Positions 13,066 through 19,546 of a stretch of 42,399 bases of DNA are shown one piece after another (within the stretch, counting starts at the first letter, position 1; every line of letters starts with the position of its first letter). A program made the translations under genes and the position numbers. The DNA is from Bdellovibrionia bacterium (GTDB taxonomy: Bacteria; Bdellovibrionota; Bdellovibrionia; Bdellovibrionales; UBA1609). The notes beneath the pieces were generated by a model. That model was given only the letters and a program-made list of their open reading frames with translations, did no database searches and had not been told where the DNA came from. The stretch covers positions 1 to 42,399 of the forward strand of contig JAUILT010000015.1 of assembly GCA_030432925.1 (NCBI GenBank). The letters run 5' to 3'.

Positions 13066-13471
13066 ATTCTTCAAGGATGGCCTTCATTTTTAAGTACTTT
13101 TCAGCTAGTTTAGAACGATGCTCGGCAACCTGGCCTTCAGAGCAGTCGCTTTGTAGCTCAATCAAATCTGTAATATCTAATTTTGAGTGATTCTCGTTCG
13201 TAGAGGAAGTACAGGCCTCTTTACAGGTTTTTTGAGCCTCAGCACAAGACTTGCCCATACCATAGAGTTTGTCGACTTCTTTTTCAGCGACCCTCACTCG
13301 GGTTTCTCTTCCAATTGAACGTATTTGACCTGCTGAAATATGATGTTCATAAGCTTTGCACTTTAACAAAGCTTGTTTGTGAGCCTTCTCACAAGAGGTT
13401 TCAAAAGATTGAGCTGAAATAGCCAGGCTCAGGACAAAAAATAATGGGATATAAAAAAATATATATTTCAT
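13043..13471 (-). CDS. Small secreted cysteine-containing protein
   Basis: The 142-residue product has a signal peptide (MKYIFFYIPLFFVLSLAISA, cut probably before QSFE) and a mature part with six cysteines: ETSCEKAHKQALLKCKAYEHH, then SCAEAQKTCKEAC, then SDCSE. This paired spacing suggests periplasmic disulfides in a small helical bundle. No family is recognised. It converges on the repeat-protein gene, overlapping its end by 23 bp, so both stops are shared in that stretch. There is a 22-bp gap from the DUF454 gene upstream, with which it may be transcribed. Confidence 0.65.
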   Translation of the reverse strand: MKYIFFYIPLFFVLSLAISAQSFETSCEKAHKQALLKCKAYEHHISAGQIRSIGRETRVRVAEKEVDKLYGMGKSCAEAQKTCKEACTSSTNENHSKLDITDLIELQSDCSEGQVAEHRSKLAEKYLKMKAILEESRIPASQ

Positions 13472-13493
13472 ATTGCAAATATCGGAAGCTTTA

Positions 13494-13931
13494 TTAAAAA
13501 GATGAACTTATTGGAGGCGAAATCTTTGAGGGACGAGTGGCAATAAACAAAATGACAGTTATTCCAATCACGGCCAAAAAGACTTTCATCCAAAGCAAAA
13601 TAGGGCGAGTGAGTATGACAAATGAAAAGCTGCAGACAAGTGTGATAATAGATATCCATTTGGCTCTTTTAGATATCACTCCATATTTTTGCCACTTGAC
13701 CAATGGAGGGCCAACAATAGGGTGTCCGACAAGCCAGCGATGAAGTCTTGGACTGCCCTTTTCAAAAGCCCAGGCAGAGATTATGATAAATGGTGTTGTT
13801 GGCCAAATAGGAAGAAAAATGCCAATAAAACCCATTACTAAACTGATTAACCCTAGAGCAAAGTAAAATTTCTGACTTATAGACCCAAGGTGCTTTAGTT
13901 TTTTAGCTTTTGACTCGATCTTTTTTTCCAT
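13494..13931 (-). CDS. DUF454 (YbaN-like) inner membrane protein
   Basis: The 145-residue product shows the DUF454 pattern: a first membrane helix FALGLISLVMGFIGIFLPIWPTTPFI, with GxxLPxxPTTPF as the family signature, then an amphipathic stretch (AWAFEKGSPRLHRWLVGHPIVG) and two further helices. The ATG at 13931, with AGAGGAAG upstream, is preferred to a TTG at 13988, which would add 19 charged residues not typical of the family. E. coli YbaN is of similar size and has no well-defined function. It lies beside, and diverges from, the PilZ gene. Confidence 0.85.
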   Translation of the reverse strand: MEKKIESKAKKLKHLGSISQKFYFALGLISLVMGFIGIFLPIWPTTPFIIISAWAFEKGSPRLHRWLVGHPIVGPPLVKWQKYGVISKRAKWISIITLVCSFSFVILTRPILLWMKVFLAVIGITVILFIATRPSKISPPISSSF

Positions 13932-14110
13932 TTCGTGTGAGTCTTCCTCTCGAACTCTTAACCTACCAATATCATGATCTCTCCTCAATAGAACTTTTTA
14001 CCGACGAAAGACCTGTTTGAGGCTTGTCTCCGGCTTTCTAAGTCAAATCAATATTAGCTTTCACCGATAAATATCTGAAGTTTGACAAAAATAAGGGAAA
14101 TATTTTATTA

Positions 14111-14866
14111 ATGAAAAAACTTTCTCATTGGCTCAAAACAAAGTTCAGCCGGAGTAATGATGACTGGACACAAATGTCTTCTTCCATCCAAAAAATGGCT
14201 GCAAAAAATAATCTTCATCGAAGAAAAAATGTAAGAGTCCTATATCCAAATTCCCACTACAGTGCCAAACTTCCACAAATTATTTATAATTCAAAAGTAG
14301 AAAAAGCCATGGATATTAGTCTCGGAGGTGTTTGCCTTCTTAATGATACAAATAGGTTTGGTTTAAGATTAGGAGAGATCATAAGTCTTTCATTTCGTTG
14401 GTTCAATGAGAAAGATGTGGATTTTAAAGCCGTAATAGTGGGACATTCTTACAACAAGGTTCATCTTCAATTTAAAGATCTCTCAACAGATATTTACGTC
14501 AAATTAAGTATTAACTTAAAATCAGGAATGGTGGGAAGAAAAATTAAAAGATCTTTATTGAATGAGAACGAAGCTATTCAATCTGAGTATTCCGAACTTT
14601 GGGTTGGGTTGAATAATGAAAAGTTAATTTTTTTTAACGCAGATTCTCTCTATGCAAAACTGAGTTACTTTGGGACAACCATTGATTTTTTTGAAGATAA
14701 GAAACCTCAGGTTTTTAACAAGCAAGGAAGTAGCTTCAATTTTACAGAGATTCACCTTTCTGATTGCTTAATTTTATTAACAAACATCCCATCGCCATCG
14801 GACTCCATTAAAAAGTTGATCTGTCTATTGCAAAATTTTAACGAACACTATAGGAATGTTGGATAA
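14111..14866 (+). CDS. PilZ-domain protein (c-di-GMP receptor), C-terminus possibly PP2C-like
   Basis: Residues about 35-135 form a PilZ domain: RRKNVR supplies the RxxxR motif (R38, R42), and MDISLGG supplies DxSxxG (D68, S70, G73), so c-di-GMP binding is expected. The 110-residue C-terminal part (LWVGLNNEKLIFFNADSL, later EIHLSDCLILLTN) resembles the strand pattern at the end of SpoIIE-type PP2C phosphatases, but the metal-binding aspartates are not visible; this is a weak inference. A perfect TTGACA at 14082-14087 lies upstream, though no well-spaced -10 follows it. The stop TAA directly abuts the ATG of the next gene, so the two are probably co-translated. Confidence 0.8.
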   Translation: MKKLSHWLKTKFSRSNDDWTQMSSSIQKMAAKNNLHRRKNVRVLYPNSHYSAKLPQIIYNSKVEKAMDISLGGVCLLNDTNRFGLRLGEIISLSFRWFNEKDVDFKAVIVGHSYNKVHLQFKDLSTDIYVKLSINLKSGMVGRKIKRSLLNENEAIQSEYSELWVGLNNEKLIFFNADSLYAKLSYFGTTIDFFEDKKPQVFNKQGSSFNFTEIHLSDCLILLTNIPSPSDSIKKLICLLQNFNEHYRNVG

Positions 14867-15085
14867 ATGGGCAGTCGTCTGCAGAGATTCGAGACATTCA
14901 AACCTTACCTTAAAAAAGGTCAACTTACCGCCCGCGGCACCAAAGTCATTTTTGAAACAAAAGATCCATTCAATCAAATAGTTCTTCCTATGGATATGGT
15001 TGATGTTATTACGCTTTGTTCAGGTAAATACACCGTTAAAGAGATTATTGAAAAAATTTATATAAAGCAAATCTGTGTCTTTTAA
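14867..15085 (+). pseudogene. 5' fragment of frameshifted gene: PqqD-like winged-helix N-terminus
   Basis: The ATG follows the PilZ stop without a gap. The 72-residue product ends just after the start of the next frame. Its tail, PMDMVDVITLCSGKYTVKEIIEKIYIKQ, is the first half of a PqqD-like or winged-helix domain (LCSGKYTVKEII is typical). The second half, VSFKNVCLTILRLQKQGFLENG, is found immediately downstream in the +1 frame. The most economical reading is one gene broken by a single extra base near 15071; a sequencing error, a real mutation or a programmed shift would all fit. No classic slippery heptamer is visible. Confidence 0.6.
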
Positions 15086-16943
15086 AAATGTCTGTTTGAC
15101 AATACTGAGACTTCAAAAACAAGGATTTTTAGAAAATGGGAATGATCTAGAGGTTCCAGATTTTCAAATTCTCAAAAATAAGTCCCGAGAGTGGTTTGAG
15201 AAGTATATATTTCCATCTTTTTCTCTAACCGTTATCAAAAAAATTGTTTTAGATACAAATTATCCTGTAGTTTTTTATATGCTTTGCGTAGGAGTTCTCT
15301 CTACTGTTATTTCTACATTTTCACAATTTGAAAGCTCTATGTTGGAAGCTCCTTTTCTTTGGAAAAGTGGCTCTTATTTCCAAGGACTTTTAACTTTTTT
15401 TGCTGCGAGCTCAATTCTACTAACCTTTAAAACTTTGATTAAGTTTTCTCTTCTTACTCTTAGAACTGGACGAATCTATAATGTAAAATTAGAAGTCTCT
15501 CCAATTGCTATGTTCTTTAAAATAGATCATGAAGGATCCCACTTGATTGATCGATTGAACGAACGTTGCCTACACCACTTGACTTCAGCTACAGTTTTTA
15601 TTCCAGGTTCTGTTATTTTATCGACGCTTCCCTGGTTTTCTGACTTTTCTCAACAAATTTTTTTGATAGCTATTGGACTTACCCTATGGGACCTCAATCC
15701 GTTTTATAAAAGTGAAATGAGTGAATTTTTTAAATCAATTGAACCTTTCGATAAAAACAACCCTTGGTTTGTGGTTCAGGGGGGGCATGGTTCTGCTTTT
15801 TTAAATAAGCATCCTTTAGTGAATCAAATTGAATACCGGAAGATCTATAATTTTGCTTGGTCGGCTTTTACTATAATGTTTACTCTAAAGCTTACTTTGG
15901 AGTCATATCCATACTTTAATTACACTCTATTCTCCAATAAAAATTGGTTGGATAAATCTGCATCTGTTTATATTTTATATTTTTTGGGATTATTTTTAGT
16001 ATTTGGTTTCTATCATCTTATACATCAAATTCTCAGCAAATTAGGAGAGTGGGGATCCCGACTAACTCGGTTGTTTCAAGCATTATTGAAGTCTGTAAAA
16101 AAGAATAAATTGGACAAAGGTATTTTGCATCAACAACTAACCTCTATTCCTGTATTAAGTTGGTTTCAAGAGGATGTTCTTAATGAGATCATTGATCAGA
16201 GCGAAGTTCTGATGTTCAAGGCAGGAATGATTATTTTTGAAGAAGAAGATGTTGCAGATTCATTGTATGTTCTCACAGAAGGTCAAGTGCGAATTTATAA
16301 AAAAATCCCTGGTGATCATAAAAAAACTAAGGTTCAGACGCTTAAACCAGTTTCTGTTTTTGGAGAATCGAGCCTTCTTGAAGATCAAAAACGCCTAGCT
16401 GCAGCTATTTCTAAAGGACAAAGTACACTTGTTAAAATTCCTTCTCATGTACTGAAGGAGTACATGAGGTCAGAGACCATTGCATTTGATTTAGATTCTT
16501 TTAGAACCTCTATTCTTGTGGATCAGTTTTTTCACTCGGCTCCAATTTTTAGTCAAATGGATCAGTCCGCCGTACAGTTTCTTATGTCTAGAGGGGTTGT
16601 TGAGGAGTTCGTGAAGTCAGAAGTTTTATTTCATCAGGGAGATTTTGCTCAAGATTTTTATCTTATAATAAGAGGCTCTGTACAAATTGTGATCAATGGA
16701 AAAAAAATTAATACTATTCCACAAGGAGGTTTTTTTGGGGAAATTGGTGTTATTGCCTCCTCCCCCAGAACAGCCACTATTGTTTGTAACCCTAATAGTG
16801 TTTTTTTAAAAATAGATGGAGATTCACTTTGGGAATTTCTTACTCAAAATATTGAAGTTGCATTGATGATTGAAGCCGTTGGAGAAATCCGTCTTCGTGA
16901 AGGCCTTGAACACCATTCTCATTGGGAGAGAGATGTTGCTTAG
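15066..16943 (+). CDS. Membrane protein, S2P/M50-like core plus two cNMP-binding domains
   Basis: The frame is open from 15066; GTG at 15075 is the only early start if translated alone, giving 622 residues. Residues 1-22 complete the winged helix of the preceding frame. About six membrane segments follow (near 64-84, 102-125, 168-205, 258-275, 297-318). DLNPFYKSEM at 206-215 resembles the LNPxxKxDG motif of site-2-protease (M50) proteins with DG replaced by EM. A literal HEGSH lies at 152-156 but not at the usual place in a helix, so activity is doubtful. Two cyclic-nucleotide domains end the protein (about 362-468 and 485-600); phosphate-binding cassettes are FGESSLL...R440 and FGEIGVI...R565. 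Likely a cAMP- or cGMP-responsive membrane regulator. Confidence 0.75.
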   Translation, partial: SKSVSFKNVCLTILRLQKQGFLENGNDLEVPDFQILKNKSREWFEKYIFPSFSLTVIKKIVLDTNYPVVFYMLCVGVLSTVISTFSQFESSMLEAPFLWKSGSYFQGLLTFFAASSILLTFKTLIKFSLLTLRTGRIYNVKLEVSPIAMFFKIDHEGSHLIDRLNERCLHHLTSATVFIPGSVILSTLPWFSDFSQQIFLIAIGLTLWDLNPFYKSEMSEFFKSIEPFDKNNPWFVVQGGHGSAFLNKHPLVNQIEYRKIYNFAWSAFTIMFTLKLTLESYPYFNYTLFSNKNWLDKSASVYILYFLGLFLVFGFYHLIHQILSKLGEWGSRLTRLFQALLKSVKKNKLDKGILHQQLTSIPVLSWFQEDVLNEIIDQSEVLMFKAGMIIFEEEDVADSLYVLTEGQVRIYKKIPGDHKKTKVQTLKPVSVFGESSLLEDQKRLAAAISKGQSTLVKIPSHVLKEYMRSETIAFDLDSFRTSILVDQFFHSAPIFSQMDQSAVQFLMSRGVVEEFVKSEVLFHQGDFAQDFYLIIRGSVQIVINGKKINTIPQGGFFGEIGVIASSPRTATIVCNPNSVFLKIDGDSLWEFLTQNIEVALMIEAVGEIRLREGLEHHSHWERDVA

Positions 16944-17068
16944 TTGTTTCATAATGATACAAATAACGGAAATCTCTACGTCTTTTTATGAAACAAAAGC
17001 AGTATAAGGATATAATAGCCCCAACACAAGGGTTGAACCATTTTAAAGTTAAGGAATTATTAAATTCT

Positions 17069-18700
17069 ATGAAGTCTATTAGTTTTTTTATATTTTTTAG
17101 TTTTGCTTCTATCCCTGTATTATTTTTTACCTCTTGCGATAAAGGGGCTAGTGGCGAACAGTCCGCACCAGCACCTAGCTCAAGTCAACTCTCTGCTCCA
17201 GATTTTATAAATCAATTTTGCTCCAATCCTGGTGTGAGTGGAAAAACCCAATCCAAGGTATCAAGATTTAAAGCCTATTCAAAAATTGACCTCTCAAACC
17301 TTACTGACACTCATGTAGATACCATTAATGGCGTGCCCCATTATAGCTTAAACATAACCGTGAACAATACTTGTCTTTTGAACAGCCAAGCAGGATTTAC
17401 CTATGATAACTTCAGGAATAGAATAACCACGTCAATGAGAATCCAATCGTTTCTATATCACCATCCTATCAGAGGAGATCTAGATGCGTTAGCCAATCAA
17501 CTTTTACAAGATGATTGTGTTTTACGAGCGTCCCCTAACCAGAAAATGGAGTTTCAGTCACATACAGAGAGCAATTTTACATGGCCCGCCTTTAATGATG
17601 ACTACGTAAAACAACAAAAACATTTGGAATCTATTGATGTGACTGGTGGTTTTTCTCATATTTACAACCCAACCTTGGGTATGAATGTACTACTCAATAA
17701 TGGCTCTGAAGTCATTATTGCAGTTGTTGATACGGGTATCGATACGTCTCATCCAGATCTTTTAGATAACTATTGGAGCTTTACTGTAACAAATAGTAAT
17801 AAAACTATTGATGGGCCATTTTATGGTGTAGATGCAGTGAGTTTGGATCGATTAGTTCAATCCTATACGGATTATAACCCTTATGATGAAGATGGTCACG
17901 GAACACATGTCGCTGGTTTAATTGGGGCAACGGCCAACAATGATCGAGGTGTTGTGGGGGTTATCCCCTACCGCTCAAAAATTATGGGTATTAAAGTCTA
18001 TCGTTATAATTCCTCTACTGGGCAGAACAACCCTTATAAAACAGCTGTTTTAAATGGTGCACGTTGGGCTCGAGATAAAGGGGCTAAGGTTATTAATATC
18101 TCAATGGGAACACTTCCTATTTACAATACAGCTTTTGACCCTGATTGGGAGATTTTATTTGATGAGCTACTTTCAGACGGAGTCTCTGTGGTTTTGGCTA
18201 CTGGAAATGGTACAGGCTCTGATCCGGCCACAGAAATTAACAATAAAACATTTGCTATTTTGCCAGCTATTTATGGGTACTCCTATAAGGGAGTCATAAA
18301 TGTGGGAGCTACCCAGGCTGAAAATAAATTGCGAGCGTCTTTTAGTCATTACAGTACGAAATATGTGGAGATGAGCGCTCCAGGAACTCAAAATAACAAT
18401 GGTCATTTAGCGCCTGGTTTGATGTCTACAGCTCCCACATATAACGTTTTGAGATTTGGTACAACAACGGGATATGCTTACGCTTCTGGAACCTCACAAT
18501 CAGCACCTCAAGTGGCTGGAGCTGTGGGGCAGGTCTACGCTTTTGTCAAAGACAAGACAGGATCTTGGCCTTCTCCTTGCGTTGCTGAGGCCATTATTCA
18601 GTACTCAGCAGATAAAGTCGATGGTTTGAAAAAGGACTTCAAAGATGGGAATCATCTTAACCTGCATAGGTTGGGTGAAGTCCTTCAAGAGTTGTACTGA
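17069..18700 (+). CDS. Subtilisin-family (S8) serine protease lipoprotein
   Basis: The ATG at 17069 gives MKSISFFIFFSFASIPVLFFTSC, a signal peptide with lipobox Cys23 and Asp at +2; an earlier ATG at 16988 would bury this signal. The 543-residue protein has a propeptide-like region to about 175, then the S8 domain with its full triad: VVDTGID (D221), DGHGTHVAG (H277) and YASGTSQSAPQVAG (S476), plus the oxyanion Asn in ATGNG (N380). It should cleave proteins at the cell envelope after prodomain removal. It follows the cyclic-nucleotide membrane protein by 125 bp on the same strand and may be its output or a partner. The end overlaps the convergent small gene by 44 bp. Confidence 0.9.
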   Translation: MKSISFFIFFSFASIPVLFFTSCDKGASGEQSAPAPSSSQLSAPDFINQFCSNPGVSGKTQSKVSRFKAYSKIDLSNLTDTHVDTINGVPHYSLNITVNNTCLLNSQAGFTYDNFRNRITTSMRIQSFLYHHPIRGDLDALANQLLQDDCVLRASPNQKMEFQSHTESNFTWPAFNDDYVKQQKHLESIDVTGGFSHIYNPTLGMNVLLNNGSEVIIAVVDTGIDTSHPDLLDNYWSFTVTNSNKTIDGPFYGVDAVSLDRLVQSYTDYNPYDEDGHGTHVAGLIGATANNDRGVVGVIPYRSKIMGIKVYRYNSSTGQNNPYKTAVLNGARWARDKGAKVINISMGTLPIYNTAFDPDWEILFDELLSDGVSVVLATGNGTGSDPATEINNKTFAILPAIYGYSYKGVINVGATQAENKLRASFSHYSTKYVEMSAPGTQNNNGHLAPGLMSTAPTYNVLRFGTTTGYAYASGTSQSAPQVAGAVGQVYAFVKDKTGSWPSPCVAEAIIQYSADKVDGLKKDFKDGNHLNLHRLGEVLQELY

Positions 18701-19031
18701 TTCTTCTTTTACAAAAACGCTGTTGTCCAGCAATTTCTACACAGGTGAATATCCAATGGGAAAATAGTTTATCACTTGTTTTCAGGCAGTCCTCGACAAC
18801 ACTAAGGATTTGCCAGTAACTTTGTTCACCATCTGAAAATACTTGAAGTGCCCCCAAGTGATGATGATCTACTTTTTGTAGAATCTGCTTTTTTAAAACT
18901 ATCCACTCGTTATCTAGACCCATAAAGGCTTCAAAGCTTAGTGATAAACGAGCATTGCAGCCTAGCCCCTGAGGGATATTGGGAGCCTGGACAGCTGTAG
19001 AAATAGTTATAAAAAAGATTTTTTGAGTCAC
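18657..19031 (-). CDS. Small protein, possibly degenerate 6-pyruvoyl-tetrahydropterin-synthase-like
   Basis: The 124-residue product starts at a GTG that overlaps the apt stop codon (GTGA), so it is the last gene of the bamB-apt operon. The stretch CNARLSLSFEAFMGLDNEWI, then LKKQILQKVDHHHLG, resembles the PTPS fold pattern (substrate strand, DxxxVxxKK, LDHxxLN), and the zinc-binding first His is absent. I hold that match as weak. The N-terminus could equally be a short signal-like strand. Its 3' end overlaps the protease gene on the other strand by 44 bp. Confidence 0.5.
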   Translation of the reverse strand: MTQKIFFITISTAVQAPNIPQGLGCNARLSLSFEAFMGLDNEWIVLKKQILQKVDHHHLGALQVFSDGEQSYWQILSVVEDCLKTSDKLFSHWIFTCVEIAGQQRFCKRRISTTLEGLHPTYAG

Positions 19032-19546
19032 AAAACTATATGGGAAAGTACCGGACTAGAGAGTTTGTCACGCCCTTTAAGAAACCCCAACTCGATTAAA
19101 AACTGAAATTGCACAACTCTTCCGCCAGCACGAGTGATGAGCTTTTCAGCTGCTTCAGCAGTACCACCTGTGGCGAGAACGTCATCAATGATAGCTATAG
19201 AGTCATCATTTTCAATGGAGTGATCATGAATTTCTAATTGATCTTCACCATATTCCAACTGGTAAGTTTGTGATAAAGTTTTTCTGGGCAGTTTTCCAGG
19301 CTTTCTCATTAGGATGACACCAACGTTCATGTGTTGGGCCATAGCTGAGGCTAGAATAAATCCACGGCTTTCAATAGCAACAAGTTTATTCACCTGTTTA
19401 GGGGTGTTTTGAGCAAAAATAGTCGCTAGGGCTCTAAAAGCCTCTGAATTTTCAAGAATGGGAGTAATATCTTTAAAGGTAATTCCCGGTTTAGGAAAGT
19501 CCTTAACGTCTACGATCAGAGATGTGACATCTTCTAAAGTCATCAT
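19028..19546 (-). CDS. apt: Adenine phosphoribosyltransferase
   Basis: The 172-residue enzyme makes AMP from adenine and PRPP in the cytosol for purine salvage. The PRPP-binding loop is IAIIDDVLATGGTAEA, the family signature ESRGFIL is present, and the N-terminus carries DVKDFPKPGITFKDITPIL, typical of bacterial Apt. Length matches the family (about 170-180). The start ATG overlaps the upstream stop as ATGA; a second ATG follows at once. Residence after bamB and a small lipoprotein is a local arrangement with no obvious functional link. Confidence 0.95.
   Translation of the reverse strand: MMTLEDVTSLIVDVKDFPKPGITFKDITPILENSEAFRALATIFAQNTPKQVNKLVAIESRGFILASAMAQHMNVGVILMRKPGKLPRKTLSQTYQLEYGEDQLEIHDHSIENDDSIAIIDDVLATGGTAEAAEKLITRAGGRVVQFQFLIELGFLKGRDKLSSPVLSHIVL

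Follow-up and report, generated by a model that had tools for sequence, protein, structure and literature searches.

A conserved, overlapping PilZ and membrane protein gene pair in the bacterial family UBA1609 as a candidate integrator of c-di-GMP and cAMP/cGMP signals

Results

In this study, we found that a gene encoding a PilZ protein and a gene encoding a membrane protein with a PqqD-like domain and two cNMP-binding domains form a conserved two-gene module in relatives of the predatory bacterium Bdellovibrio, and that the two genes are translated in overlap. From the sequences, we lean towards the reading that this PilZ/PqqD-like/cNMP module would integrate c-di-GMP and cAMP/cGMP at the inner membrane.

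The DNA analysed here (the window) is a stretch of 42,399 nucleotides from a Bdellovibrionia bacterium, positions 1–42,399 of contig JAUILT010000015.1 (GCA_030432925.1), and it carries a three-gene locus at 14111–18700 on the + strand. The PilZ gene (14111..14866) ends with a TAA at 14864–14866, directly before the ATG at 14867 of the membrane-protein gene, so the gap is 0. The gene of a subtilisin-family (S8) protease follows (16988..18700) after 44 bp or, if the start is at 17069 instead of 16988, after 125 bp. These values agree with the same-strand gaps of 0–125 bp given in an earlier note on this DNA, made from the sequence alone. No terminator-like site was found on the + strand within 13400–19200.

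A profile of the window-type PilZ was searched against 141 genomes of the order and a phylum set of 369 genomes. It was found in 16 of the 141 genomes, all belonging to the family of the window (UBA1609) and mostly uncultured Bdellovibrio relatives. The earlier note had proposed to check whether the genes stay adjacent in relatives, and for the PilZ/membrane pair they do: in all 16 genomes, the PqqD-like/cNMP gene comes immediately after PilZ, with gaps of 0, −1, −4 or −8 bp between the PilZ stop and the next start (for six of the 16, the nearest candidate start was used). The phylum set added two weaker matches from another order, both standing alone. The adjacency seen in the 16 genomes is far beyond chance.

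Further downstream, genes for an M14 carboxypeptidase, cytidine deaminase, apt, a BamB-like protein and LeuDH occur in many genomes, and apt, BamB-like and LeuDH keep the same order across the family. Therefore, general conservation of gene order could account for part of the adjacency, and PilZ and the membrane protein could be mere neighbours in a conserved chromosomal stretch, without joint function. We regard this as improbable, since the downstream order breaks (a CAAX-protease gene is inserted in G006, the M14/deaminase genes are inverted in G028, and the S8 gene is lost in six genomes), whereas PilZ and the membrane-protein gene always stay together, with overlaps of up to 8 bp, even though PilZ identity is low (22–33%). 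Moreover, outside the PilZ-paired clade the membrane protein has a different partner. The two genes are the sole never-parted neighbours in a partly syntenic region. The M14 carboxypeptidase and cytidine deaminase genes stand beside the module in several genera (e.g., L040:9407-10753) and are missing from the genus of the window.

The PilZ protein of the window has 251 amino acids, and its PilZ domain (residues ~37–145) matched PF07238 with an E-value of 1.4e-6 and 29 bits against a cut-off of 22.5. The AF2 model (pLDDT 81) superposes on PDB PilZ domains with VIA Z up to 11.9. The c-di-GMP motifs (14222..14329) consist of RxxxR (R38, R42), in which both arginines are invariant, and DISLGG (D68–G73), and RxxxR together with [DN]xSxxG is present in all 18 PilZ proteins of the window type. 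The protein had been described as a c-di-GMP-type PilZ, and its fold and motifs agree with this. It continues into a beta-rich C-terminal domain (residues ~160–248; 14590–14860 in the window) of ~90 aa, with six strands followed by two helices and a pLDDT near 90. This domain gave no clear structural match but a polo-box-like topology at Z 5.5–6.3, a likeness that we did not trust as an identity. A second PilZ gene was observed further upstream in G006, G035, G026, G134 and G013 (L058:6586-7212, L064:6619-7278, L219:2505-3143); its product has a weak PilZ domain (E 1.3e-4) and a distinct N-terminal domain.

The membrane-protein gene of the window is not one open reading frame, a point absent from the earlier note. 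The frame that starts at ATG 14867 runs for 72 codons, holds most of the PqqD-like domain and stops at TAA 15083–15085 (14867..15085). The remainder, which encodes the end of the PqqD-like domain, the helical membrane core and the two cNMP-binding domains, lies in a different frame that is open from 15066 to 16943, with a GTG at 15075. An intact homologue of 691 aa from the same genus aligns with the two halves one directly after the other (52% identity over 64 aa and 34% over 627 aa), and therefore one extra base lies between about 15066 and 15082. Relatives read through this site in a single frame, and the homologue comparison detected the break in none of them; programmed frameshifting was set aside because the break is confined to the genome of the window. 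An assembly error or a real, recent mutation would account for it. If the mutation is real and inactivating, the module would be dead in this organism, a possibility that we hold to be real though the less probable outcome. One extra base does split the frame, and this genome has no second full-length copy of the gene. On the other hand, there is only a single break, the remaining 1,870 bp are open and conserved, and the PilZ and S8 genes are intact. The sequence comes from a draft assembly in 172 contigs, which makes an assembly error or a very recent change just as probable as inactivation.

The model of the membrane-protein homologue of G002 (mean pLDDT 78) indicated an N-terminal beta-beta-beta-alpha-alpha-alpha domain (E15-20, E23-28, E34-38, H39-47, H54-65, H70-82), six long helices (134–402) and two cNMP domains, in this order. 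The N-terminal domain, which had been read as a winged helix, is present and is predicted to be PqqD-like, that is, of a peptide-binding type. In a single pairwise hhalign comparison with 15 PqqD proteins of the phylum, it reached 66% (E 5.6e-5, 72 columns), while Pfam matches among 26 members were all weak (PqqD in one, E 0.011; PaaA-like_N in five). PqqD-type domains are peptide binders in the systems where their function is known, and therefore a role in DNA binding cannot be taken for granted. Both ends of the protein are predicted to be in the cytoplasm, because the number of predicted helices is even.

The core had been called S2P-like, and the protein would then be a cNMP-regulated site-2 protease. 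It is suggested by the words HEGSH (15528..15542) and DLNPF in the window and by the best local hhalign match, a non-significant one, which places the M50 sequence NLIPLHPLDG on DLNPFxxSE. However, none of the 25 other aligned members has HExxH, and the HEGSH word, found in no relative, resembles it by chance. The M50 profile PF02163 did not match any of the 26 members, and in the genome of the window it found other M50 genes and missed this one. With hhalign, the probability against small M50 and RseP-like protein sets was 0.3%, and no PqqD–M50 fusion was seen among the matches listed for the phylum. The structure search with the homologue model had its matches taken up by the cNMP domains. 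Taken together, membership in the M50 family was rejected, and we consider a site-2 protease very unlikely. A cyclic-nucleotide-gated K+ channel was also rejected, as the filter T[VIL]G[YF]G is present in 0 of 26 aligned members.

The two cNMP-binding domains are present as the earlier note had read them (PF00027, E 1.5e-34, in two stretches). Domain 1 (16215..16472, cassette FGESSLLEDQKRLAA) is partly degenerate in the window, where it retains FGE and, within KRLAA, the R, with L in place of the T/S residue; the relatives have FGE and usually RTA or RSA, and G023 and G034 have lost the domain. Domain 2 (16545..16862, cassette FGEIGVIASSPRTATI) is canonical, and FGE..PRTAT is kept in nearly all members. 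In the homologue model, this domain superposes on the domains of SthK, HCN2 and PKG with VIA Z of about 18–20, the value for SthK and HCN2 being about 20. Genes for class III cyclases (PF00211) and GGDEF proteins were found in 11 of the 11 module genomes tested, so that these bacteria can probably make both c-di-GMP and cAMP/cGMP.

A tree of 39 proteins (a quick search that included several long rows) placed all PilZ-paired members in one clade (SH-aLRT 100) that also holds three members at contig edges, and hence the PilZ pairing arose once. Most membrane-type members outside this clade are followed by a small gene with a GspG-like domain (PF08334, best E 8.6e-5), which begins either in overlap with their stop codon or shortly after it (L067:10179-10568, L070:5101-5505, L072:10028-10405, L073:10085-10483, L076:7541-7906, L078:10071-10457, L079:10028-10738, L081:2995-3405, L082:6613-7014). 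It looks like the GspG-like protein is the ancestral partner of the membrane protein. No prepilin cleavage motif was recognisable in these partners; their ends read SxGPDGxxxTxDDI, which is calcium-loop-like. G020 has both types of the membrane protein.

Soluble relatives of ~440 aa, in which two cNMP domains follow directly on the PqqD-like domain, are present in several Bdellovibrionales genera (L214:4702-6027, L215:2732-4090, L217:4097-5422, L224:4570-5898), with no PilZ gene nearby, and soluble cNMP-pair relatives of the membrane protein are found in further genomes. In G013, the PilZ-paired protein itself is without the membrane core (397 aa, no predicted TM) and PilZ still overlaps its gene, which indicates that the pairing needs no core. 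Taken together, these observations on partners and soluble forms suggest that the PqqD-like/cNMP part is a constant regulatory unit around which partners were exchanged.

The third gene encodes an S8 protease (PF00082, E 1.7e-39) with a lipobox-like Cys, consistent with the subtilisin-family lipoprotein named in the earlier note, the lipoprotein nature being probable. All nine copies have an intact Asp/His/Ser triad (D[TS]G[IV]D, HGTH, GTS), and the residues around it vary slightly in G013, G034 and G002. The three-gene group of that note was only partly retained in relatives, since the PilZ/membrane pair is constant and the protease is present in nine of 15 contexts (the window, G002, G006, G035, G026, G134, G023, G034 and G013) and absent in six (G005, G028, G137, G138, G012 and G135); G139, where the contig ends, is outside this count. 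For this reason, its role as output or client of the module stays a guess. The pair may well be the whole module. The S8 protein would then be a passenger, or an envelope protease that shares the operon but has no link to the pair, a view to which we give only a little less than even weight. Besides the six absences, another gene intervenes in G006, and the M14 carboxypeptidase and cytidine deaminase genes occupy the same place in many genomes. Against it, the nine best matches of the S8 subfamily in the order are all within the module cluster (partly circular, as seven of them are in the profile), on the same strand and mostly with short gaps, and the triad is intact. Overall, we put the protease as output or as passenger at about even.

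Discussion

The earlier note had proposed joint control of the membrane protein by c-di-GMP and cAMP/cGMP, and had named loss of adjacency in relatives, or pockets unable to bind the ligands, as grounds against it. Neither was seen: PilZ and the membrane protein stay coupled in all 16 genomes, all 18 PilZ proteins have intact motifs, and domain 2 keeps its cassette. Therefore, joint control is a reasonable proposal, although the membrane-protein gene is frameshifted in the genome of the window itself.

We suggest the following course of events for the module. PilZ would bind c-di-GMP and dock on the membrane protein at its cytoplasmic part, and cAMP or cGMP would bind mainly at domain 2. The docked PilZ and the cNMP together would determine which state the PqqD-like/membrane part adopts, and this part would relay the state to a partner in the envelope. 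The co-encoded S8 lipoprotein could be this partner in five genera. As a more specific and rather speculative proposal, the module might be a coincidence detector, in which docked PilZ with c-di-GMP and the tandem cNMP domains with cAMP/cGMP jointly set the PqqD-like peptide-binding domain and the core, the output being in the envelope (the S8 lipoprotease in some genera), and in which the GspG-like partner was swapped for PilZ.

Bdellovibrio-type bacteria have unusually many PilZ receptors, with 15 reported in B. bacteriovorus HD100 (PMC3271064). For few of these receptors is a target known. An invariant, overlapping PilZ/partner gene pair names the likely target of one such receptor from genomics alone. 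Each domain of the module is already known. The earlier note knew of no described system with this gene set, and in the open-licence PMC papers we likewise found no description of a PilZ receptor co-encoded with a tandem-cNMP membrane protein, no text joining PilZ with cNMP domains in Bdellovibrio and no name for the architecture.

Several known systems share parts of this arrangement. MapZ-CheR1, YcgR and MotI are stand-alone PilZ receptors that act on partners; they have the PilZ fold and the RxxxR/[DN]xSxxG motifs in common with the window PilZ, and a similar partner-binding mode is probable. The partner here, however, is a PqqD-like/membrane/tandem-cNMP protein, and the C-terminal domain of the window PilZ is without a clear counterpart. 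SthK and HCN channels, which have six TM helices and a cNMP domain, also carry a helical membrane core ahead of the cNMP domain, but our membrane protein has two cNMP domains, an N-terminal PqqD-like domain and no T[VIL]G[YF]G filter, and the core alignments gave an rmsd of 17–19. The best NCBIfam match was TIGR03896, a bacteriocin-type transport-associated protein that also has tandem cNMP domains, but its 64 bits are far under the cut-off of 161 bits, and the match is limited to the cNMP domains.

Among described cases, Bd1971 of Bdellovibrio bacteriovorus comes closest; it is a cNMP-EAL phosphodiesterase in which cNMP binding activates c-di-GMP hydrolysis (PMC6717892). It joins cAMP/cGMP sensing to c-di-GMP signalling in a related bacterium, as the module would, and its cNMP domain, like those of the module, resembles the domains of protein kinases. 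Bd1971 differs in being a single soluble enzyme, which breaks down c-di-GMP upon cNMP binding, whereas the module has no EAL domain, and a protein of its own, PilZ, would read c-di-GMP next to a membrane protein that carries two cNMP domains. If our reading is true, c-di-GMP and cAMP/cGMP signalling would meet directly at the membrane in this module, unlike in Bd1971, where the cNMP alters c-di-GMP hydrolysis.
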